Shown piece by piece: positions 6,125-28,299 of a DNA stretch of 30,581 nt. Numbering within the stretch: position 1 is the stretch's first letter; each line of letters opens with the position of its first letter. A program made the position numbers and the translations under genes. The notes beneath the pieces are model-generated. The model saw only the letters and a list, made by a program, of their open reading frames with translations. It did no database searches and was not told the DNA's origin. Origin of the DNA: a virus; IMG/VR virus record IMGVR_UViG_3300005436_000029, positions 1 to 30,581 of that record; one strand, 5' to 3'.

Positions 6125-6454
6125 ATGACTCAAACGCCAACAAAGCTCCCTCCAGCACCAGTCAACATGTCTGACCTACAAAAGAAGACTATCAAAGGCG
6201 TTGAGCAGGACGAGATTTACCAAGTAAGTCTCGTCCTGGACAATGACAACGTCTACCAAGTAGATCTTCCTCGTAGTATCCTTGTCTCTTTGATAAACCC
6301 AAAGGTTACTGATGGGTTTATCAAAGTTAAGGTACAGGCAGTTAGCACTGGGTTGCTGCAAGGCGCTGGCTCTCACAGGTTCATTCACACCAGTTTCATC
6401 CGAGAAATAGTCTTTAACCAAGACTTACCTGATACCCTCCTCGGAGGTGCCTAA
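6125..6454 (+). CDS. Small hypothetical head-module protein
   Basis: 109 residues, not recognised. It starts 17 bases after the capsid stop behind an AGGAG site and its stop shares one base with the next start (TAATG). The sequence is mixed alpha/beta with a predicted small beta-barrel character (DEIYQVSLVLDNDNVYQVDL, later GFIKVKVQAV). Its place directly after the capsid gene suggests a decoration or head accessory protein, but nothing in the sequence proves that. The real start could also be the methionine at residue 14. Confidence 0.6.
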   Translation: MTQTPTKLPPAPVNMSDLQKKTIKGVEQDEIYQVSLVLDNDNVYQVDLPRSILVSLINPKVTDGFIKVKVQAVSTGLLQGAGSHRFIHTSFIREIVFNQDLPDTLLGGA

Positions 6455-8190
6455 TGACAGCTCAGTATCCAGCCCCTCCTGTTAACCAAACTGCAACACC
6501 GACATTCTCCGTAGATCCCGTAACAGGTGCTCCACTTTCCCCTACAGACGGCCAGGCAACGAACGTCTCGCAGATCAACGGCCAGACAGTTAACTCCTCA
6601 GACGGTAACATGCCCGTTGAGCAAGCTGACCTCACCACTTCGGGAACGCTCAGTGCAGCGCAGTCAACTGAGGGTACACCAGTTGCTAACGCAACTCTTG
6701 TACTCAGTGTCGGTTTAGGACAAAGTGCATGGAGAGCCTCTCTCGTAGCCGGTGCAGGATTCACGAGTGCGACAACCATTGTTGCGGACAGGACCGTAGA
6801 TGGCACTAACTGGATTACAATGGGATTCAAAGTAGGTGGCGCTCTCGCAAACACAACTGTGCAGTCAGTAGTTGGTCCTGGTCCTTTGGAGATCACCGGC
6901 AACGCTGCTGGAGCCAATAAAATCCGCATTAGATGCTCTGTACTCAATGGTGGTGAGAGTGTTGTGGTGACATTGCGATCGAGTGCGGGAGTAGCAGACG
7001 TCGGATTATTATCTTCCATTCCAGCAGGTTCTAACAATATCGGCAGCGTTACTGCTAATGCTGGTACCAACCTGAATACGTCCCTGCTAGCATTAGAGGC
7101 TGGCGGCAACCTGGCCACAATAGCTACAAATACTACTGGAGTAGCTACTGCTGCTAACCAAACTACAGGAAACGCCTCGCTTAGTACTCTCGCTGGTGCA
7201 GTCAGCGGAGGTAAGGAACAAGTCAACGTAACGCAGATTGGTGGAGTCTCTACACAGATGAGCACTGCGGATGGCGTTAGCTCTGCCAATGTCCAAGAGG
7301 TTAGCAGCACTCAATACAATTCCGGTGGACCACCACTCTCAACCGGCGTTCCAAACGGCCTCTCTCTGGATCGCAAACTAAATACGCAAGGTAAGGGGTC
7401 AACGCTCAACTCTGCTATCACTACTACCACAGCGGGGGACACTAACGTCACATTCAGTGTTGCTCCGAAGACCATCACGCAAGGGCAAGGCATCTTACTC
7501 TCTGGTTCTGGCACAGTTGAGAAGGTCTACGTCACAACTAACGCCACGATTACATCCACAACGACGGTGTTCCCACTGCAAAGTCCCATCGTTAACAGTG
7601 GACAAACATCTGCCTCTTGGGACATATTCGCTGCTGACGGCGCTGCCACAAGTGCAATGACTGCCAATGGGTTAGACATTGCAATAGTCGCAATGAATGA
7701 TCCGAGTGCGACTAATCCGAAACAATACCGATCGATGGTATCTGCAGCACAGGATGCCATAAGCGGAAAAAGCGTATTAGCGAACAATGCGGTTCTTTAC
7801 AATGGTACTAATATGGACCGCAAGAGAGGCAACCTCGACAATATCACCATACTCACGGTGGCTGCTCAAACGACTAGCCAGAACGGTGCTGACCAAACCA
7901 ACTATAACGCCAGAGGTGCAAAGGTCTACTTGAACATGACTAATGTTGGTACTGGATCTGTAACCCTCACCATCCAAGGGAAAGATCCAGTGAGTGGAAG
8001 CTACTACACCCTACTTACTGGCGCAGCCGTAGTTACGAACTCCTTCAATGTGTACGAGGTCTATCCAGGAGTAGCAGTGACGACAAACGTGAGTGCATCC
8101 ACAACTCTACCTCGCACTTGGAGAGTCATCACAACCGCAAACAACGCTAATGCAACTACGTACACATGCAGTGTGTCCTACGTGCTGTAG
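6454..8190 (+). CDS. Large beta-rich virion structural protein
   Basis: 578 residues of Thr/Ser/Ala/Gly/Val-rich sequence with almost no charged clusters, Cys or long helices, typical of beta-sandwich or fibre proteins on phage particles. At least three units can be seen. Residues 60-180 are a sandwich-like domain (AQSTEGTPVANATLVL onward). A middle linker carries NIGSVTANAG and repeated TTGVATAANQTTGNA-type text. Residues 465-578 are a second sandwich (NMTNVGTGSVTLTIQGKDP, then YEVYPGV). The start overlaps the previous stop by one base behind TCGGAGG. Because it lies between the capsid and adaptor genes it may sit on the head surface, or it may be a tail fibre component placed unusually; the sequence does not decide. 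Confidence 0.7.
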   Translation: MTAQYPAPPVNQTATPTFSVDPVTGAPLSPTDGQATNVSQINGQTVNSSDGNMPVEQADLTTSGTLSAAQSTEGTPVANATLVLSVGLGQSAWRASLVAGAGFTSATTIVADRTVDGTNWITMGFKVGGALANTTVQSVVGPGPLEITGNAAGANKIRIRCSVLNGGESVVVTLRSSAGVADVGLLSSIPAGSNNIGSVTANAGTNLNTSLLALEAGGNLATIATNTTGVATAANQTTGNASLSTLAGAVSGGKEQVNVTQIGGVSTQMSTADGVSSANVQEVSSTQYNSGGPPLSTGVPNGLSLDRKLNTQGKGSTLNSAITTTTAGDTNVTFSVAPKTITQGQGILLSGSGTVEKVYVTTNATITSTTTVFPLQSPIVNSGQTSASWDIFAADGAATSAMTANGLDIAIVAMNDPSATNPKQYRSMVSAAQDAISGKSVLANNAVLYNGTNMDRKRGNLDNITILTVAAQTTSQNGADQTNYNARGAKVYLNMTNVGTGSVTLTIQGKDPVSGSYYTLLTGAAVVTNSFNVYEVYPGVAVTTNVSASTTLPRTWRVITTANNANATTYTCSVSYVL

Positions 8191-8199
8191 GAGGTCTTT

Positions 8200-9435
8200 A
8201 TGAGCTTTATAGCCCTTGTCCCACCGATCTACTACAACGTCAAGCAATATGGAGCGCAAGGTAATGGGACAACGGATGACACTACAGCCATCCAAACAGC
8301 CATCACAACCGCACAAACTGCTGGCGGTGGAGTTGTCTACTTCCCACCAGGTACTTACATCATTTCCAACACGCTTACCATCTCTCACGATAACATGGAG
8401 CTAATAGGCGCTGGCTGGTCATCTGCAATTCAGGCAGGGTCTTCTATGCCTGCCGCCCCCATGATCCAAGTAACAGTAAGTAGCACCCAGCACCGGCGCG
8501 GTATAAAGATTGCCGAGATGTTTATCAATGGCAATAGCATTACCGGGGTCAGCGGAATTGAGCTAGACAATACATATCAAGCTCTCATTGACCACGTGTG
8601 GATACGTTTCTGTCCGGTGAATGGAGTCTACCTCAATGGTGGCCCAAGCAGCAGCTTTGGTGCTTACACTACCATACACGCCAGTACCATTTCTGATGGT
8701 GGTGCAGGAATTGGCTTACTCACCTTCAATCACGAGTTTAACACGATTACGGATTGCCTCTTTTCATTCTACAACAGCACTGGTGGATATGGTATGAAAC
8801 TCCAAAACGGCAACAACAGTATCAAAGGTTGCACGTTTGACGAGTGCGATACCTCCGTGTGGTTGTTCTTCACGCACAACAATAGTTTTATGAGTTGTCA
8901 ATTCGATCGTGGCCTGACGCAGTTCATTTACCTTAACGGAAGTAAGTTGACATCGTTCATTGGAAACTTCTTCGGTGTCTTTAGCGGTAGTGGCACTAAG
9001 TCAATGATTGTTGTGGACAATTCCAGTAACGCTTCCAACAACTTCATTGGGAACTACACACAGACCGGCACGACTTGGACAAATTTTCTGAGCGAGGACG
9101 GCGCTACTGGTACTCCCGGAAACACCTATACAGAGAACACTATTGGATCCTTAGCGGTAGTGAGGCACAATGGCGTCTTCAAAAACAATACGGGCTACAA
9201 CCCGGTAGGTTCACTTACTCCCCCTACAGTGCCGGCCACAACAGTAGCACAAACCAACAGTTTCGGAGTAGACGCTGCGGTCTTTGTGGCTGCAAGTGGA
9301 GCCACCATCACTGCAATTGCGATTGGTGGTATCTCCACTGGGCAAACATCTGGTTCTTTTAGAGTGCCTGCTGGACAATCGATAACGCTTACCTATTCGG
9401 GAGGAACTCCTACCTGGACTTGGTTCGGAGATTAA
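8200..9435 (+). CDS. Pectate-lyase-like right-handed beta-helix protein (spike/fibre)
   Basis: 411 residues behind TAGGAGG. Residues 8-75 match the N-terminal pattern of the Pectate_lyase_3 group: VKQYGAQGNGTTDDTTAIQ, then GGGVVYFPPGTYIISNTL. The following 230 residues show repeated short strands with Asn/Gly turns (NSIKGCTFDECD, NNSFMSCQFDRG, SFIGNFFGV), the coil pattern of a right-handed beta-helix. The last 80 residues form a Thr/Gly-rich beta domain that may trimerise or bind. In phages these proteins are spikes or depolymerases that bind or cut surface polysaccharide. The catalytic residues cannot be named from sequence alone. Position in the head module rather than after the tail genes is unusual. 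Confidence 0.85.
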   Translation: MSFIALVPPIYYNVKQYGAQGNGTTDDTTAIQTAITTAQTAGGGVVYFPPGTYIISNTLTISHDNMELIGAGWSSAIQAGSSMPAAPMIQVTVSSTQHRRGIKIAEMFINGNSITGVSGIELDNTYQALIDHVWIRFCPVNGVYLNGGPSSSFGAYTTIHASTISDGGAGIGLLTFNHEFNTITDCLFSFYNSTGGYGMKLQNGNNSIKGCTFDECDTSVWLFFTHNNSFMSCQFDRGLTQFIYLNGSKLTSFIGNFFGVFSGSGTKSMIVVDNSSNASNNFIGNYTQTGTTWTNFLSEDGATGTPGNTYTENTIGSLAVVRHNGVFKNNTGYNPVGSLTPPTVPATTVAQTNSFGVDAAVFVAASGATITAIAIGGISTGQTSGSFRVPAGQSITLTYSGGTPTWTWFGD

Positions 9436-9438
9436 CTC

Positions 9439-10035
9439 ATGTCTGCATACTCAGCGCTAATCTTATCAGAAGTGGGTTTACAGGCATACTACCGTATGGA
9501 TGAGACATCCGGCACTGTTGCCCATGACAGTACCAGCCATGCTTACAATGCTGCGTTAAGTGGAAGTTTCACATTGGGGCAGCCGGGAGCAATTGTTGGA
9601 GATAGCGACACTTCCATTTTGTTCGATGGTGCGACGGGGATCATTTCTCTTCCCTACACACTTAACTACACGACATTTTCGACACTCTCGCTGGAGTTCT
9701 GGACAAATGTCGCAGGTACCTGGCAATACATCGTTATCACGTGCGACGGGAGTAACATCTTTACTTACCTCAACAGTCTTCCCTACTCTGCGAGCGCTAC
9801 ATCAACCGTGGTTGTTGGAGACTTGATAGACTTTGCAGGTAGTTACGTAACCAGCAACTTAGATGAAATTGCTCTTTACAATACGCAGTTGAGTCTTCCT
9901 CAAATCCTCAACCACTATGCGACTGCTGGCTATAGCCCGTCATCTCTTACCTTCCCAGCAGTAAATCGTAGAACAGGTTTGTTCTCTGCAACGAATCGTA
10001 GAGACGGTGTCATACCAGCGACGAAGAGAAGGTGA
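9439..10035 (+). CDS. LamG/concanavalin A-like lectin-domain protein
   Basis: 198 residues, 3 bases after the spike gene. It shows the LamG/ConA-like pattern: LQAYYRMDETSGTVAHDST at the start, SILFDGATGIISLPY, LSLEFWTNV, and the closing strand NLDEIALYNTQLSLPQI followed by NHYATAG. Such domains bind carbohydrates and are common in phage fibres. The C-terminal 27 residues carry three short degenerate repeats built on NRR/KRR (NRRTGLFSATNRR, DGVIPATKRR), a basic tail that may contact another virion protein. The end overlaps a possible GTG start of the next frame, but the ATG at 10043 is a better start for that gene. The partner is presumably the preceding spike. Confidence 0.75.
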   Translation: MSAYSALILSEVGLQAYYRMDETSGTVAHDSTSHAYNAALSGSFTLGQPGAIVGDSDTSILFDGATGIISLPYTLNYTTFSTLSLEFWTNVAGTWQYIVITCDGSNIFTYLNSLPYSASATSTVVVGDLIDFAGSYVTSNLDEIALYNTQLSLPQILNHYATAGYSPSSLTFPAVNRRTGLFSATNRRDGVIPATKRR

Positions 10036-21456: not shown

Positions 21457-22158
21457 CTATCTACTATGCTTCTTTCGCCACTCCCAGATTTGATTGTCTA
21501 CTTCCCTTGGAGTAAGCCCAAGTTGTGCAGCAGCGACACGCACGAGGGCTTTCATCTCATCGTTCGTTAGTGCATGACCAACGACTTGCTCCAGGTAATT
21601 GTAAACATGCCTATCGATCTTCACCGCGTTCTCATCCCCGGACAACATCCAGAAGTAGTCATATGAGATCCCGCTTCCTTGACCCGTTATCCCCTGAATT
21701 GTTGTTGCAAAATCGTGGTTTCGTTGTAAATCAGGATGCAAATCCTGGAAATACTCGATACCATATGCCACTAACACCTCTGCAAACTGTAAACTTGCCT
21801 CCGCTTTACGAATACTGCTCCTGATTGTCGTCGAAGTCCATTGACGATTGTTGAGCACTGTCTCCATAAACTGATCTGATCCCATGTCCCGACCAATCTG
21901 AACAAACTGGCTTAACGGTTCTTGAGCATCCGCTCTCAAGAAAACCTGACGATCTGGTCTATACGTCACAGGGATACCTCGCCAGGCAACGTATCGTGTT
22001 GACACGTTTCTCTCTGCCTCAGCCCGCGTGTTGATCGAGAAGACTGCTGAGAGGACGCACAGCGAGAGGTGTGCATATTTTAGCTCTGGGAGATCTGGTG
22101 CTGGTGGAAGTTGTTGCAATGCTTGGACAGTGCGTCGAAGGTCCTCACGAGTGACCAT
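21457..22158 (-). CDS. HhH-GPD-type DNA glycosylase-like protein
   Basis: 233 residues from the ATG at 22158, seven bases after AGGAG; an earlier in-frame TTG would add 11 residues without a site. The first half is helical (LKYAHLSLCVLSAVFSIN resembles the first helices of the endonuclease III fold). The signature is residues 159-165 GQGSGIS, the hairpin of the helix-hairpin-helix, followed by SYDYFWML and D182 in AVKIDRHVYNY, the position of the catalytic Asp. The lysine of bifunctional members (in GVGRKTA) is replaced by Gly, so any glycosylase would be monofunctional. No iron-sulphur cysteine set is seen at the C-terminus. The role is unknown: base removal, repair or defence. It is transcribed with the preceding small gene, near the repressor. 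Confidence 0.7.
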   Translation of the reverse strand: MVTREDLRRTVQALQQLPPAPDLPELKYAHLSLCVLSAVFSINTRAEAERNVSTRYVAWRGIPVTYRPDRQVFLRADAQEPLSQFVQIGRDMGSDQFMETVLNNRQWTSTTIRSSIRKAEASLQFAEVLVAYGIEYFQDLHPDLQRNHDFATTIQGITGQGSGISYDYFWMLSGDENAVKIDRHVYNYLEQVVGHALTNDEMKALVRVAAAQLGLTPREVDNQIWEWRKKHSR

Positions 22159-22257
22159 TAAGTATCTCCTCTTGCGTAGCAATGGGCGCAAAACGGATAT
22201 ACGAGCGATTTCTGTTCCCCTATATAAAGTATAAGCTATGCTTTACACCACGGGTAA

Positions 22258-23186: not shown

Positions 23187-23424
23187 GCAGTTGTTCTATG
23201 TGTTTACACAGTTGTTATGCAACAAGTAAAACACGAGGTCAAATAGTGAGTTGGCTTTAGAAGCCGCTTTGCTGGTGTGCGGAATGAGTAGCATGTTGTG
23301 AACATGTTACTGTCTCAAAAACAACTGCCCGTACGGGCTTGGGGGTTCGAATCCCCCCACCGGCACTTGGAGCGCTTTGACGCTCAACCATACGTGACCT
23401 CTAGCATAACAACGTGCAGTTGTT
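23187..23424. repeat. CAGTTGTT repeats around the putative attP
   Basis: The octamer CAGTTGTT occurs at 23188-23195, 23209-23216 and 23417-23424, with its complement in AACAACTG (23320-23327) inside the tRNA-like sequence. At 23408-23424 AACAAC and GTTGTT form an inverted repeat around GTGCA. Another dyad TTGTT-ATGC-AACAA is at 23213-23226. All are within 240 bases ahead of the integrase gene. Tyrosine integrases bind arm- and core-type repeats around attP, so these are likely integrase sites. Confidence 0.6.
23271..23365 (+). tRNA. Degenerate tRNA-Leu(CAA)-like sequence, putative attachment core
   Basis: 95 bases with a closed acceptor stem (GCTGGTG with CACCGGC, one G-T pair), a perfect T arm (GGGGG TTCGAAT CCCCC), a type II variable arm (GCCCGTACGGGC) and a loop CTCAAAA that gives anticodon CAA. 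The D arm is one or two bases short (GCGGAAT to GAGTAGCA). The anticodon stem pairs only if GTTGT and ACAAC are used, which leaves 14 extra bases. An alternative hairpin CATG-TTGTGAA-CATG would present GTG (His). No CCA is encoded. The intact 3' half next to an integrase gene is the usual picture of an attP that copies a host tRNA end; a functional gene is unlikely but possible. Confidence 0.5.
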
Positions 23425-23442
23425 TACTTGGAGGTCATTTTT

Positions 23443-24381
23443 ATGCTCATTACCGCAGCCATCGAAGAGTATCTGGCTTGCAAATCCAATGCTCTTACCC
23501 ACTCGACTTATCGCTGGTATACCTGGGCACTCGATAGTTTTGCTCAATGGTGTACCGTCAACCACCTCACTGAGTTGAGCGAGATCACTACTGCTCAAGT
23601 CCAACGCTTTGTTGCCTCTAACCCTAAACTGAGCGACAACAGCAAACACCACAAAGCGCAGGTTCTCAAAACCTTCCTAAGATGGTGTGCGCAAGACGAT
23701 GAACTAGGCGTGAGAGAACGCACTGTGAGACGTATCGAAATGCCAAAAGTTGCTCAGCCTGGCGTCGAGATCTACTCGGAGACAGATATCAAACGGTTAT
23801 TGGCAGCGTGTGAAGCCGTGAGACATCCGCTCCGAAACAAAGCGATCCTGCTGATATTGCTGGACACCGGAGTACGTATCGCTGAACTCTGCTACGACAA
23901 TAGCCGACCAGAGGAGAGCACTGGCTTGCTTTTGGAGAACGTCATCCTCGGACGACGTGGTATGGAGTCCTACATCATCGTCATGGGTAAAGGTCGTAAA
24001 GTGCGTTCAGTGAAACTCGGCGATGAGAGTCGCATCGCTGTGCAGAGATATGTCAACCGAGAGAGAGCACATTCTGAGTCTCCCTATCTGTTCTTGGCAC
24101 AAGGAGATGAACCTCTCAGTACACGGATGCTCGATCAACTGCTGGATAAGCTCGGTGTCATAGCAAAGGTACCAAATACACATGCGCATCGCTTCAGGCA
24201 TACGTTCGCTATCAACCAACTGATGCATGGCACTGCTGATCTTGTCTTGATGCAACTCCTGGGTCACACGACATTGGAATCGACGAAGATCTACACCAGA
24301 GCACTATCACAGCTACAAGCACGTCAAGCATCGATCAGCGTTGCTGATGCACTGCATGGTCATCGCAGACGAATGAAATAA
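23443..24381 (+). CDS. int: Tyrosine recombinase (phage integrase)
   Basis: 312 residues from the ATG at 23443, seven bases after GGAGGT; a TTG at 23428 has no suitable site. Residues 1-90 are the SAM-like N-terminal DNA-binding domain (AIEEYLACKSNALTHSTYRWY). The catalytic domain carries the complete set: R145 (TGVRIAEL), K183 (GKGRKVRSV), H249 and R252 (HRFRHTFA), H275 (LLGHTTLE) and nucleophile Y284 (KIYTRAL). It is XerC/D-like in length. In phages this enzyme integrates at a tRNA or similar attB, and the tRNA-like sequence directly upstream supports this. It is followed by a repeat-rich tail rather than another gene on its strand. Confidence 0.95.
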   Translation: MLITAAIEEYLACKSNALTHSTYRWYTWALDSFAQWCTVNHLTELSEITTAQVQRFVASNPKLSDNSKHHKAQVLKTFLRWCAQDDELGVRERTVRRIEMPKVAQPGVEIYSETDIKRLLAACEAVRHPLRNKAILLILLDTGVRIAELCYDNSRPEESTGLLLENVILGRRGMESYIIVMGKGRKVRSVKLGDESRIAVQRYVNRERAHSESPYLFLAQGDEPLSTRMLDQLLDKLGVIAKVPNTHAHRFRHTFAINQLMHGTADLVLMQLLGHTTLESTKIYTRALSQLQARQASISVADALHGHRRRMK

Positions 24382-24846
24382 CAATGCATTGAAATCACTG
24401 CATTGAAATAACACTGCATTGACTTGATGGACTCGATTGATGCGATGACCATGCAAAGAGGTAGATATCACTCGATACCTACCTCTTTGCTAGCCTTGAT
24501 CGTTCGCATCAATCGAATCTTCGTCATCGTATACCGGCTCAAGTAAGAGTAAGCCAGCATAGCACAGGCGTTGGCCTCTACTGCCATCCTGGCGAAGACC
24601 AGAGGGATTACTTTCTTTATAACCTGCCCCGGTGGCTAACTTCTTCAACACTGCATTGAATGCTTCTCTGGATACTGGCACTGCATTGAGTTCAGTGCAT
24701 CGAGCATAGTAGTGCTCATAGCACTCCCATTGTGCAGTGATAGCCTTAGCATTGAACTCTGCCCACTCACTAAACCACTGCGTTGCATCATAGAGTTGTC
24801 TCTGCACAGGTTGCAGTGTTTCCATTGCATCGTTGTCAATGCAGTG
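24382..24846. repeat. CACTGCATTGA repeat cluster (iteron/clt-like)
   Basis: The 11-mer CACTGCATTGA occurs exactly at 24396, 24412, 24649 and 24679 and in inverted form at 24836-24846; a one-mismatch copy is at 24382 and a two-mismatch copy near 24776. The first three copies are spaced 14 and 16 bases, directly behind the integrase stop. The others lie inside the coding sequence of the ATPase, in different reading contexts (for example NAV and HCID), so they are not a protein-level repeat. Five exact 11-mers in 450 bases are very unlikely by chance. Likely binding sites for the ATPase or a replication protein. Confidence 0.85.
24433..24516. repeat. Nested inverted repeat between convergent genes
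   Basis: An outer pair TCGATTGATGCGA (24433-24445) and TCGCATCAATCGA (24504-24516) encloses a hairpin from 24453 to 24490, GCAAAGAGGTAG against CTACCTCTTTGC, extended by TATC/GATA across one mismatch to a four-base loop. No T-run follows on either strand, so it is not a standard intrinsic terminator. The right outer arm also codes for the end of the ATPase. Structure by eye only. Confidence 0.75.
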
Positions 24847-26025
24847 CTCTTCAAAGACGTTGAACGTCGCAATGTCGATACTCTTTGCATCTACGCGTAA
24901 GAATGCGTACATAGATGCATTGTCAGCGTAAGGGACTCTTGCATACGTAAGACGGCCACCAGTACTAATGATGACGTTGCCTTTCACCCCGCGATTCAAC
25001 CAATCCAGATCCAGCTTTGTCTCCTGACCGAACAAGTACTTCTTCGTCATAGCATCAGGTACGCCAGGTGCGATGACAGTTCTGAAGCAGTCTTGTACGC
25101 CAGAACTCAACCCGATCGTTTGTACTTGAAAATCAGTCGATGCGACGATGCAGAATACTTTGTACTGGCGACCTGTACGCAGAATCTTACCTACGGCTGT
25201 TGGTATCTCTTTGCCACATTCGCTGACGATAGCAGGTAGCTCATCGATGACGATCCAGACCGGGTCCCACTCTTCAGCAGTGCCATCGCGTTCTTCTTGT
25301 TGACGTTGACCAATGAGATCTAACACTCCTTGAAAGAAGTTCGGCATTGCTTTGTACTTGCAAACGATGCCAGATAGCAATGAACTGACTGCACGAAGGT
25401 CTGTTTTTGCTTTATCGTTCTTGACTGGTGCCCACATGGGATTCACCCAATAGACATATGAAAATGGAATCAGTTGCATTATCAGTAACAACTCAATGTT
25501 TGTCTTACCGGAACCCGTTGGTCCTGGCAAAGCAATGTGATACGACGATGCAGGATTGACTATTACGTGGCGCTGAGCATCCTCCAATGCCAATAACAAC
25601 TGTTCTGCTGCCGGTGCAAAGCCTTGCCATATCAGGTCTGACACAGAGATGTCACTAGTGTTGGACGTGACGCCAATCAGGTTTCTACGCGACAGCGTTG
25701 GCATCGCTTCTACTGGAGAACTCTCAGGGAACCTACCAAGTAATCTATCACGGATAGACCTGTTGGCACTCAGCGCAGGCAGTGCATCGGTGCTAGGCAA
25801 AGACGCTTCTTCTGCCTGGACATGAGAGGAGGGGAGAGGCAAAAAGCCTCTCCCGAACGCTACAAAGTCTTCTCCGTGACGCCAGGCAACGTAAGCTGCT
25901 GCTGCGCCGATGAACGCGCCTAATGGCCCTGCATGGGAAAGTGCAACGGCTGTCTCTGCGACTGCAAGTGTGCCAGCGGACATTCCCAATTGCAATCTTG
26001 TGACTTTGGGAGAGTGCTCACGCAT
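24490..26025 (-). CDS. FtsK/HerA/TraB-type ATPase
   Basis: 511 residues. Residues 13-48 are hydrophobic (membrane-facing, one or two helices). Walker A is GPTGSGKTN at 168-176 and Walker B VWIVIDE at 256-262. A sensor-like stretch CIVASTDFQVQTIGL follows, then a Q/R region (RTVIAPGVPDAMTKKY) as in HerA/FtsK DNA motors. Residues 433-495 form a winged-helix domain similar to phage primase ends (VSREAFNAVLKKL, GQRLCYAGLLLLEP). GGAGGT lies before the ATG. The gene is the last of a five-gene minus-strand unit, two bases after a membrane protein gene. Its 3' end carries the 11-bp repeats, as clt lies with traB in Streptomyces plasmids. Role proposed: pumping double-stranded DNA; a partition role is also possible. 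Confidence 0.82.
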   Translation of the reverse strand: MREHSPKVTRLQLGMSAGTLAVAETAVALSHAGPLGAFIGAAAAYVAWRHGEDFVAFGRGFLPLPSSHVQAEEASLPSTDALPALSANRSIRDRLLGRFPESSPVEAMPTLSRRNLIGVTSNTSDISVSDLIWQGFAPAAEQLLLALEDAQRHVIVNPASSYHIALPGPTGSGKTNIELLLIMQLIPFSYVYWVNPMWAPVKNDKAKTDLRAVSSLLSGIVCKYKAMPNFFQGVLDLIGQRQQEERDGTAEEWDPVWIVIDELPAIVSECGKEIPTAVGKILRTGRQYKVFCIVASTDFQVQTIGLSSGVQDCFRTVIAPGVPDAMTKKYLFGQETKLDLDWLNRGVKGNVIISTGGRLTYARVPYADNASMYAFLRVDAKSIDIATFNVFEEHCIDNDAMETLQPVQRQLYDATQWFSEWAEFNAKAITAQWECYEHYYARCTELNAVPVSREAFNAVLKKLATGAGYKESNPSGLRQDGSRGQRLCYAGLLLLEPVYDDEDSIDANDQG

Positions 26026-26027
26026 GA

Positions 26028-26555
26028 CTACCTCCTAAACTCTACAAACGCTCTCTCTACGCACGCGATACCAGCGACTAACCCAAAGACTACAATGAAT
26101 GACGTGACACCAGCGAACAAGAGTTGTCCGAGCCAACCACTTGAAAGTGTTCCATAGTTGTAGTCAGTGAAGCCATTCAGCGCCATCAGGATAACTGCAC
26201 CAGTTCCATACCAGCGACGAAGCTTGTCAGATGACGCTCCGACTGCGTGCGCAGTGACTTCATAGGCCACAGAGACGATCAATGTGATAATCTCCATCCC
26301 CCATCCGACTGCAACGGCTTCAGCTAGAGGGCCGCTTAGTTGGCCTGATACGAACGCTGGGAGTTGCAGAAACAATTGCCAATTGGCATTGCTCAACGAT
26401 ACAGTACTCCCGCCGAGTATATAAGCCTCCGTCGTCTGGATCTGCAAGAGCGAAGAGGCAACGAACACAGCTAGAATCAAACCACCTACGATAATAAGCA
26501 CTAGCGGACTAGACCCACGTTTGACGACGGTTGGTTGCACAGTGTTAGTTGACAT
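26028..26555 (-). CDS. Four-helix membrane protein, ATPase partner
   Basis: 175 residues with four predicted membrane segments, around residues 15-40 (PLVLIIVGGLILAVFVASS), 77-102, 115-135 and 142-170, and a short basic N- and C-terminus. No family was recognised. It lies between the finger-bearing membrane protein (11-base overlap) and the ATPase (two-base gap), each with a GGAGGT site, which implies coordinated production. In Streptomyces-type transfer systems the motor gene is accompanied by small multi-pass Spd proteins; the parallel is by layout, not by sequence. Confidence 0.7.
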   Translation of the reverse strand: MSTNTVQPTVVKRGSSPLVLIIVGGLILAVFVASSLLQIQTTEAYILGGSTVSLSNANWQLFLQLPAFVSGQLSGPLAEAVAVGWGMEIITLIVSVAYEVTAHAVGASSDKLRRWYGTGAVILMALNGFTDYNYGTLSSGWLGQLLFAGVTSFIVVFGLVAGIACVERAFVEFRR

Positions 26556-27480
26556 GTTGTCCTACCTCCTGGATGTCAGTAACTCTACCTGCTGGTAGCA
26601 CTTGCCGCTCCATATCAAGGAACAGTTGCTTTACGTATTTGTCAGCTTCTAACTGTTCCTTCTTCGCCTCTGCCATTGCTCTACGGTCGCGTGCCTCTTG
26701 AGTAAGCTCCTTTATCTTGTCTGCTACCGTCTTTACTTCGATTGGAATGGCAATCGCAATCGCGAAGTCTGCGGATGTCGTACCAATCGCACGAAGGGCG
26801 ATGATAGACCACGGTAGTATTACAGCCATAGTAGGGCTGAGCAAGCTCGCCCCAGCTAAAGCAGCGAACTGCGCTACTGCAGAGACGAAGGCCAATGCTG
26901 CCCACGTCCAAGCAGCTACTCTAAACTGTTTTTGCATCTCCGGTAGTGCGTCTTTTGGTGCTAAGATCATCCGTTTGCGAAACCTGTGCAAAGCGAATGT
27001 CATCACCATCAAGATTGCCTCGAAAAAGATCGTCATCATCAGGATCGCAACAATCGAGGCAATGTTGGTGTTACCACCGATGAGGAACACTGCTATGTCT
27101 ACTCCTACGGCAGCAACTAAACCTGCTGGGCAGATAAGCGTTCCCCAACTGATGACATGTCGGCGAATCGTCTCATCGCTAGTTTCAACATCAGTGCTTC
27201 GATGTGCCTCACGAAGCTGCTCATCGGTTTCGTCGAAGTACACTTGAGCGCGATCAGCAATTCGACGTTCTTCATAGTTGACGACATTCTCCGTCATCGT
27301 CGTTGTCGTCGTGCGCGAAGCAACTTGCAGTTTCTTCTGCTCTGCTGTCCTTGCCAATGACATCTGAGTCTTCCACCGATTGTGCTCATCCAGGCATTGC
27401 TTGTTGTGATACGAAGTGCCCTTTTTCAAGGGCACTATCGATGTGCATTTTGGATTTGCACACCTCTTTTCATCTGGCAT
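26545..27480 (-). CDS. Membrane protein with N-terminal Cys/His finger and C-terminal coiled coil
   Basis: 311 residues. Residues 7-33 form a small metal-binding module (C7, C12, C29, H33, with H25 near) like short zinc fingers in phage and plasmid proteins. Residues 55-105 are helical and charged. Residues about 110-245 contain four hydrophobic segments (GTLICPAGLVAAVGVDIAVF, IVAILMMTIFFEAILMVMTF, WAALAFVSAVAQFAALAGA, TSADFAIAIAIPI). Residues 250-300 form a coiled coil (KIKELTQEARDRRAMAEAK). Both ends would face the cytoplasm. It could couple DNA or the ATPase to the membrane. It starts behind AGGAGGTAACAACG, a leader also used at 30368. Confidence 0.7.
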   Translation of the reverse strand: MPDEKRCANPKCTSIVPLKKGTSYHNKQCLDEHNRWKTQMSLARTAEQKKLQVASRTTTTTMTENVVNYEERRIADRAQVYFDETDEQLREAHRSTDVETSDETIRRHVISWGTLICPAGLVAAVGVDIAVFLIGGNTNIASIVAILMMTIFFEAILMVMTFALHRFRKRMILAPKDALPEMQKQFRVAAWTWAALAFVSAVAQFAALAGASLLSPTMAVILPWSIIALRAIGTTSADFAIAIAIPIEVKTVADKIKELTQEARDRRAMAEAKKEQLEADKYVKQLFLDMERQVLPAGRVTDIQEVGQHVN

Positions 27481-27494
27481 CGTTGTTACCTCCT
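27476..27494 (-). repeat. 19-base translation-start leader, copy 1 of 2
   Basis: The 19 bases GGCATCGTTGTTACCTCCT (plus strand) cover the start codon, ribosome-binding site and spacer of the finger membrane protein gene. The same 19 bases recur at 30364-30382 before the 68-residue gene. They were probably duplicated or are constrained as a common start signal. Confidence 0.7.
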
Positions 27495-27689
27495 TCGTCT
27501 GGCTAGCTCTCGATCACGCGCGCGGATGAGAAACGCGAGATCGTCTGCGTCAACGAACTTGTAATCGATTAGCTGAACTAATCTATCTATCATGTAAGCG
27601 ATGTCGTAATCATCGTATAGTTGAGTCTCACCCGTTGTATAGCCCGTTAAGAACTGAAACAGTTCTCTTGCAAGTTCTTTCTGTGACAT
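27486..27689 (-). CDS. Small acidic helical protein
   Basis: 67 residues from the ATG at 27689, eight bases after AAAGG; an earlier in-frame start inside the HNH gene end is less likely. The sequence is helical throughout (KELARELFQFLTGYT, YDIAYMIDRLVQLIDYKF) with a very basic end (RARDRELARRRR). No family recognised. It sits between the HNH gene (13-base gap) and the finger membrane protein (5-base gap) and is likely co-transcribed. It could be an accessory regulator or an inhibitor of a neighbour. Confidence 0.6.
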   Translation of the reverse strand: MSQKELARELFQFLTGYTTGETQLYDDYDIAYMIDRLVQLIDYKFVDADDLAFLIRARDRELARRRR

Positions 27690-27702
27690 CGATGTGACCT
27701 TT

Positions 27703-28299
27703 CTACCATTGAGTCTTGTTTTTCTTGCGGCAATTGCACACAAAATGCGCTAGCTGTACGTTTGACGGCTCATGTGTACCACCTTTTGAAAGCGGCTTAA
27801 CATGATCTAAAGACTTCGACATCGGGTGTGGATACTTCAGAGTTTGATCGACTGGTTGCAAGCAGAGCTGGCAGATCCAATCGTCGCGTTCGTAAATCTC
27901 CCGATGGTTGACTGGCGCGACGTATGCACTACGCTTGCGGGCATCGTACCTATGAGCGTACTCAAGAACCCTTTCGGGATTATTCTTAGCCCACTGGCGA
28001 CAACTCTCCCGCTCTTTTTCTCGGTTGCTAGGATTGTCATAGTACTTACGAACGCTCTCACGGACTTTTTCTGGGTAGGTTGCATCGTACCAGCGAGAAT
28101 GCTCACGATTTTTCTCCCGATTGGCGGCATCATACTTACGACAGTACTCGCGCGCATTCTCTGCATTTTTTGCATACCATCTACGATCATTCTCGTTGGT
28201 ACACCTTTTACACAGAGAGCACAACCCGGACTTCCTCTGGCGATCTCTTCCGAAGTCGCTCTCTGTTAAGTCGTCTCTTTCGCACTTTGGACAGTACAT
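27703..28299 (-). CDS. HNH endonuclease with zinc ribbon and linker repeats
   Basis: 198 residues. Residues 3-33 hold a zinc ribbon (CPKC and CSLCKRC). Residues 42-123 are about five degenerate 16-18 residue helical repeats (REYCRKYDAANREKN, RESVRKYYDNPSNREKE, RESCRQWAKNNPERV), common in phage homing-type nucleases where they span DNA. The nuclease core follows: WICQLC (C143, C146), then SLDHVKPLSKGG (D165, H166), SNVQLAHFVCN (N180, H185) and C188/C190. These match the ββα-metal HNH motif. It is the first gene of the ATPase unit. It may be a mobile passenger, or a nicking partner; the position alone does not decide. Confidence 0.85.
   Translation of the reverse strand: MYCPKCERDDLTESDFGRDRQRKSGLCSLCKRCTNENDRRWYAKNAENAREYCRKYDAANREKNREHSRWYDATYPEKVRESVRKYYDNPSNREKERESCRQWAKNNPERVLEYAHRYDARKRSAYVAPVNHREIYERDDWICQLCLQPVDQTLKYPHPMSKSLDHVKPLSKGGTHEPSNVQLAHFVCNCRKKNKTQW

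Follow-up and report, generated by a model that had tools for sequence, protein, structure and literature searches.

A phage locus that pairs an FtsK-superfamily ATPase with membrane proteins and clustered repeats: a candidate pump for double-stranded DNA

Why would a tailed phage encode an FtsK-type ATPase, side by side with membrane proteins and with short repeats at the 3' end of the ATPase gene? The question is raised by a linear IMG/VR record of 30,581 bp, IMGVR_UViG_3300005436_000029, which was analysed over its whole length and is referred to here as the window. It is a tailed-phage fragment whose left end lies inside the large terminase gene and whose right end falls before the replication genes; its genes run from the partial large terminase through portal, head and tail genes to an integrase (int), followed by a block on the minus strand. 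Five genes of this block, from 28299 to 24490, are spaced by 2-13 nt or overlap by 11 nt, and encode an HNH endonuclease, a 67-residue open reading frame (ORF), a 311-residue finger and coiled-coil membrane protein, a small membrane protein and the ATPase. An earlier note on this DNA had described these five genes, all of which are indeed present, and had read them as one candidate TraB/FtsK-type DNA transfer or partition system. FtsK-like phage genes have no agreed role so far, and a phage module that combines the motor with membrane proteins and embedded repeats makes the FtsK role testable. Our answer, offered tentatively, is that the module is a membrane-anchored pump of the FtsK superfamily for double-stranded DNA (dsDNA), which would work with one or two membrane partners, load on the phage's own DNA and move the excised genome through a membrane or septum.

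The ATPase (511 aa; 24490-26025, minus strand; characterised by alignment with two relatives, hhalign and hydropathy) carries a Walker A motif, GPTGSGKT, at residues 168-175 and a Walker B motif of the form hhhhDE with D261 and E262. The motor spans about residues 150-365; before it lies a putative membrane hairpin at about residues 11-49, with hydropathy peaks of 1.2-1.9 in residues 11-46, and after it a winged-helix-like region at about residues 413-491. Three relatives of this ATPase pass the Pfam model FtsK_SpoIIIE (PF01580) with 30.3, 27.2 and 35.8 bits at a cut-off of 24, that of phage G012 doing so by itself, and three relatives are matched by the FtsK-like PHROG 1358 (phrog_1358). A profile built from three aligned ATPases, those of the window and of phages G006 and G011, was compared by hhalign with targets that included eight Streptomyces TraB proteins. 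It matched TraB at P 6.7e-6, E. coli FtsK at P 2e-6 and a staphylococcal plasmid FtsK at P 2e-7, and the matches to these TraB and FtsK proteins span 170-210 motor columns. Terminase aligned only in short stretches, of the P-loop or of Walker B (P 0.05 and 0.0016), primases and portal gave no match in the same hhalign comparison, and a control profile with shuffled columns returned P values of at least 0.25. The best solved-structure match of the profile is the conjugation coupling protein TcpA (PDB 6o1w), at E 3e-4; against phage and plasmid collections the ATPase gave weak motor matches only. By these comparisons of sequence the ATPase is, as the earlier note had held, of FtsK type; it is a motor of the dsDNA-pump kind in that superfamily and not a packaging terminase. 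A packaging enzyme was checked as the alternative: the ATPase has no terminase-like motor match, and these phages encode separate terminases of their own.

The C-terminal winged helix that had been claimed for the ATPase fared less clearly. When the C-terminal domains were isolated, all three gave RFX_DNA_binding, with E-values of 0.004, 0.07 and 0.1, and two gave Pox_D5, with E-values of 0.1 and 0.15, every one of these matches being under the cut-off. A winged helix is plausible from such matches. Pfam found no FtsK_gamma domain in the ATPases of the window or its relatives, isolated C-terminal domains included.

Conservation was assessed among four phage genomes, three of which are contigs without end repeats: the window, G006 (IMGVR_UViG_3300005537_000017, 39,375 bp), G011 (IMGVR_UViG_3300006028_000024, 33,228 bp) and G012 (IMGVR_UViG_3300027706_000012, 48,312 bp). 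The soil phages G006 and G011 carry the finger protein, the small membrane protein and the ATPase in the order and spacing of the window. Relative to the window, the finger protein, its position kept, is 45% (G006) and 43% (G011) identical, the small membrane protein 34% and the ATPase 25% identical in both. Portal and head proteins are encoded in G012, a contig with ends that share a 165-bp overlap at 99%. Its small membrane protein, 46% identical, is followed at once by an ATPase whose likeness to that of the window lies in the N-terminal 90 residues. There is no finger protein in G012; a different membrane protein of 333 residues is reached across the contig junction (L045 5-1006, joined to L041 8346-8536). 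It has N-terminal membrane segments, a long charged stretch that is probably a coiled coil, and a possible C-terminal helix-turn-helix (HTH) region with a weak match (HTH_36, E 0.02), a layout like that of Streptomyces SpdB2-type proteins but without sequence similarity to them.

All four phages have the small membrane protein gene next to the ATPase gene, in an unchanged order, and at least three different kinds of portal protein occur among them. G011 has a terminase and an SPP1-type portal that differ from those of the window and G006, which implies that the module has either been passed from phage to phage or outlived an exchange of structural genes. The five-gene order that the earlier note had put forward was sought in the other genomes and proved too wide: only three of its genes are kept in G006 and G011 and two in G012. 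Since no HNH or 67-residue gene accompanies the homologous genes in the relatives, the conserved unit is counted as three genes (two in G012). Where the window has these two genes, G006 and G011 carry a protein of 125-127 residues, preceded by a small HTH gene whose G006 copy matches excisionases.

Both membrane proteins have orthologues in the relatives, so the expectation that membrane genes would be conserved beside the ATPase is borne out, by the small protein in G006, G011 and G012 and by the finger protein in G006 and G011. The 311-residue protein (26545-27480, minus strand) has a zinc finger of the form C-X4-C...C-X3-H, a coiled-coil stretch, about four transmembrane segments by hydropathy and a further coiled-coil stretch, much as had been described; it has no relative in the phage collection searched. 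The 175-residue integral membrane protein (26028-26555, minus strand) is encoded directly upstream of the ATPase in every phage compared. It had been called a four-helix protein; its membrane nature stands, and hydropathy gives three to four segments. No match to DUF2637, the Pfam model for Spd proteins, occurs beside the ATPase in the window or its relatives.

At the 3' end of the ATPase gene of the window, an 11-bp repeat, CACTGCATTGA (TCAATGCAGTG on the ATPase coding strand), occurs in six copies with at most one mismatch each, all within the 465 bp of 24382-24846. Only 1.05 copies are expected by chance in the whole window, and none of 100 shuffles reaches six, which bears out the short repeats reported at this position. 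Three copies are non-coding: one at 24382-24392, the only one of the six with a mismatch, directly follows the int stop codon, and two exact copies lie between int and the ATPase gene at 24396-24406 and 24412-24422 (all on the plus strand). Inside the gene are two exact direct copies at 24649-24659 and 24679-24689 (plus strand) and one inverted copy at 24836-24846 (minus strand). The in-gene copies are separated from the three outer ones by a hairpin at the ATPase stop codon (24453-24490; 17 bp, 16/17 paired, loop of 4), likely a bidirectional terminator, on which a scan for T-run terminators made no call. No other 600-bp stretch of the window is as rich in repeats as the one where the 3' ends of the ATPase gene and int meet.

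A clustering of short words is also found in the relatives. The word test took in every 5-letter word, a single two-fold degenerate position being allowed, and every coding segment up to 200 codons long; its null was the number of copies that protein sequence and genome codon usage require. The word CAG[AT]G had first been chosen by eye, a choice for which the all-words test and the permutation of codons within each segment correct. For short-word excess, the final 200 codons of this gene for the ATPase rank first of 36 coding segments in the window, first of 45 in G006 and first of 34 in G011. G006 has 16 copies of CAGWG in 190 bp of the ATPase gene, on one strand only. When synonymous codons were permuted within the segment, there were 21 copies against 10.4 expected in G006 (P 2e-4), 16 against 8.5 in G011 (P 8e-4) and, in the window, two copies of CAATGCAGTG against 0.10 (P 0.002). 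The clusters of G006 and G011 are not independent, because their ATPase genes are 83% identical in DNA, and the word excess of the window is modest on its own, the 11-bp repeat aside. The repeats of the window nevertheless coincide in position with the word clusters of the G006 and G011 ATPase genes. Directly after the ATPase gene, G012 has an imperfect palindrome of GGTA/GGTG repeats (L041 8140-8270), which might be a terminator.

From the gene conservation, the FtsK-type motor sequence and the repeat and word clusters that are observed, we infer how such a pump may work. The N-terminal hairpin probably anchors the ATPase in the membrane, where the protein probably forms a ring. The C-terminal winged-helix-like domain would recognise the cluster of repeats that its own gene carries at the 3' end, and the ATPase would in this way load on the phage's own DNA; a passage would probably be formed or gated by the membrane partners. 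Such a pump would most likely serve to drive the excised double-stranded phage genome across a membrane or septum and so into an adjoining compartment or cell, much as TraB, clt and Spd act in Streptomyces. Transfer to another cell or compartment would plausibly be the most economical use of membrane partners together with repeats in cis.

The closest parallels are the TraB or TraA-clt-Spd systems of Streptomyces (pSVH1, pIJ101, pWTY27) and the actinomycete integrative and conjugative elements (AICEs), which are alike in having an FtsK-superfamily motor with N-terminal membrane segments (putative here, two in pWTY27 TraA; PMC3583192), a C-terminal DNA-binding domain (putative here) and membrane-protein genes in the operon. 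In pSVH1, TraB reads 8-bp repeats via a C-terminal winged helix, and the clt of pWTY27, in which there are four direct repeats of 7 bp, takes in 16 bp at the 3' end of traA and continues for 159 bp past the gene (PMC3583192). Common to clt and, as read from the letters, to the phage module are short direct repeats that lie beside or within the 3' end of the gene for the translocase; in three phages they lie largely inside the ATPase gene. Further differences are that the present module sits in phages with terminase, portal and tail genes, and that the phage membrane proteins, placed upstream of the ATPase, are unrelated to Spd by sequence. The likeness to TraB, clt and Spd that had been proposed holds for an FtsK-type motor, for repeats placed much as in the pWTY27 clt and for the presence of membrane genes, and is not supported for a TraB-specific motor or for Spd similarity.

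AICEs are defined by an Int/Rep/Tra set, with RepSA, RepAM or Prim-Pol as Rep and an FtsK-type Tra (PMC3218068). Only in G011 among these phages do a tyrosine integrase, Prim-Pol (PF09250) and FtsK_SpoIIIE each exceed their cut-offs, which gives the AICE-defining set in a phage; integrase and Prim-Pol replication gene share the element there as they do in AICEs, and the replication gene of G006 is a D5/P4-type primase. Because all are phages, the window, G006 and G011 are not filed as AICEs. That these temperate phages, besides producing virions, are also self-transmissible, moving their excised dsDNA genomes directly between cells or mycelial compartments by a TraB-like pump that loads at in-gene repeats, and are in this way natural phage-AICE hybrids, is an extension of the pump that we consider unlikely; if transfer is true, one genome would cross the line between phage and conjugative element.

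Other relatives are more distant in context. TcpA, which the ATPase profile matches best among solved structures, is the coupling protein of the conjugative plasmid pCW3 and works in a type IV secretion system that has a relaxase; no relaxase or type IV secretion gene was recognised in the selected genes scanned, no systematic search having been made. Phage-borne FtsK-family ATPases are known from the FtsK/SpoIIIE-like proteins of PHROG 1358, of gamma-like Bacillus phages and of AP-20-A; for the latter two, membrane partner genes or in-gene repeats are not among the features reported in the parts of those accounts available to us. Chromosomal FtsK is alike in its motor domain (P 2e-6) and differs in its length of 1329 aa, against about 510-550 aa for the present ATPases, which give no FtsK_gamma match and have dedicated membrane partners. 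A literature search for phages with TraB-type transfer found none, and the pairing with membrane proteins and an in-gene word cluster has no precedent in the literature searched.

Several results weigh against the proposed pump, or against its likeness to TraB. Taken alone, the window ATPase falls below the FtsK_SpoIIIE cut-off and has few matches of its own; it is counted in the FtsK/SpoIIIE superfamily because alignment and hhalign join it to its relatives. Membership of TraB in particular, as the earlier note had it, is not upheld: TraB, E. coli FtsK and the staphylococcal plasmid FtsK score alike, the profile of G006 and G011 alone favouring TraB (1.3e-7 vs 1e-3) and the window ATPase alone favouring the plasmid FtsK (8e-10). 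The evidence for the winged helix, consisting of sub-threshold RFX and Pox_D5 matches, is weak, and structure prediction of the ATPase gave pLDDT (predicted local distance difference test) values of 33 and 36 with no usable fold match. Compared by hhalign with SpdA and SpdB alignments, both membrane proteins gave P 0.04-0.5, that is, no match; this is a weak negative, since Spd proteins are described as highly diverse among plasmids (PMC4170104). The window word TCAATGCAGTG has only a loose likeness to the CAGWG and YAGAG of the relatives. The G012 ATPase gene shows no in-gene word excess (rank 35/49), and the word test on eight Streptomyces traB genes found no comparable in-gene cluster, so such a cluster is not a general mark of these pumps; in-gene repeats as a general TraB feature were ruled out on the same eight genes. 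Scans of cellular genomes with the finger membrane protein and the portal found no relative.

These points leave room for other functions. An FtsK-type helper that acts on phage DNA within the infected cell, where it would keep prophage or replicating genomes away from the septum, resolve concatemers or segregate excised copies with no transfer between cells, is somewhat unlikely and still a serious rival to transfer. The motor resembles E. coli FtsK no less than TraB, and for FtsK/SpoIIIE-like genes of other phages it has been suggested that the infection cycle calls for DNA translocation (PMC4113786) or that concatemers are resolved (PMC13299392). Two dedicated membrane partners, however, seem more than such a helper needs, and the FtsK_gamma domain is undetected by Pfam. 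The presence of an integrase with a tRNA-Leu attP makes plasmid-style partition, the other role named in the earlier note, less likely for this phage. We also doubt that the module serves defence or superinfection exclusion in the prophage, which is improbable: PADLOC mad8 matches the motor at 1.4e-6 and 3e-12, probably by a shared FtsK-like fold, and membrane proteins are common in exclusion systems, but neither membrane protein matches PADLOC and no partner gene of a listed system occurs among the proteins scanned.

Two further alternatives concern the repeats. Phage genes are known that hold an origin in their linker, as lambda O does, and the in-gene repeats may be iterons of a replication origin, or sites of another protein, unrelated to ATPase action, which would leave the function of the pump free; the weak C-terminal Pox_D5 resemblance also recalls primase-type origin-binding domains. 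We regard this as quite unlikely, for the ATPase is not an initiator-type protein, and G006 has a separate and much denser repeat region, non-coding and with long inverted repeats, at 26600-27700 (L014 6600-7700), between the primase gene and int, the commoner place for an origin and likely the origin itself. It is very improbable that the repeats are arm-type sites of the neighbouring tyrosine integrase (23428-24381, plus strand, convergent with the ATPase gene; Pfam Phage_integrase 7.5e-27), even though three CACTGCATTGA copies directly follow its stop codon. A tRNA-Leu-like sequence with its 3' half intact, read by eye, lies directly upstream of int at 23271-23366 (plus strand), about 1 kb from the repeats, and is the probable attP; in G006 such a sequence, with its 5' half intact, is likewise directly upstream of int (L014 8629-8700; by eye). 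The half of the target tRNA gene that is restored therefore seems to be the 3' one for the window phage and the opposite, 5' one for G006. The attP thus lies on the other side of int, away from the repeats, and chromosomal integration is indicated; once it was found, the idea that the CACTGCATTGA copies are arm sites was dropped. The word clusters in the ATPase genes of G006 and G011, moreover, have no int adjoining them.

The two genes ahead of the conserved module complete the minus-strand block. The HNH endonuclease (27703-28299, minus strand; Pfam HNH 1.5e-9, phrog_1035 9.5e-24) contains internal repeats of the (R)EKxRExxRxY type and, inserted ahead of the module, is probably a homing-type passenger outside it. 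Outside it too is the 67-residue ORF (27486-27689, minus strand), which has no relatives at the corresponding locus of G006 and G011. Elsewhere in the window, the portal protein is about 100% identical in two other contigs and about 61-66% identical in several more. Comparison with the otherwise nearly identical contig L018 shows tail-fibre or adsorption genes that are strongly diverged between almost identical flanks (window 6454-10035, L018 1859-6127), possibly a host-range swap region. Finally, a conserved protein of 235-244 residues is encoded near a repressor-like HTH gene in the window (21457-22191), in L014 (10074-10781) and in L026 (6716-7423), and the window copy matches phrog_29694, a family of unknown function.

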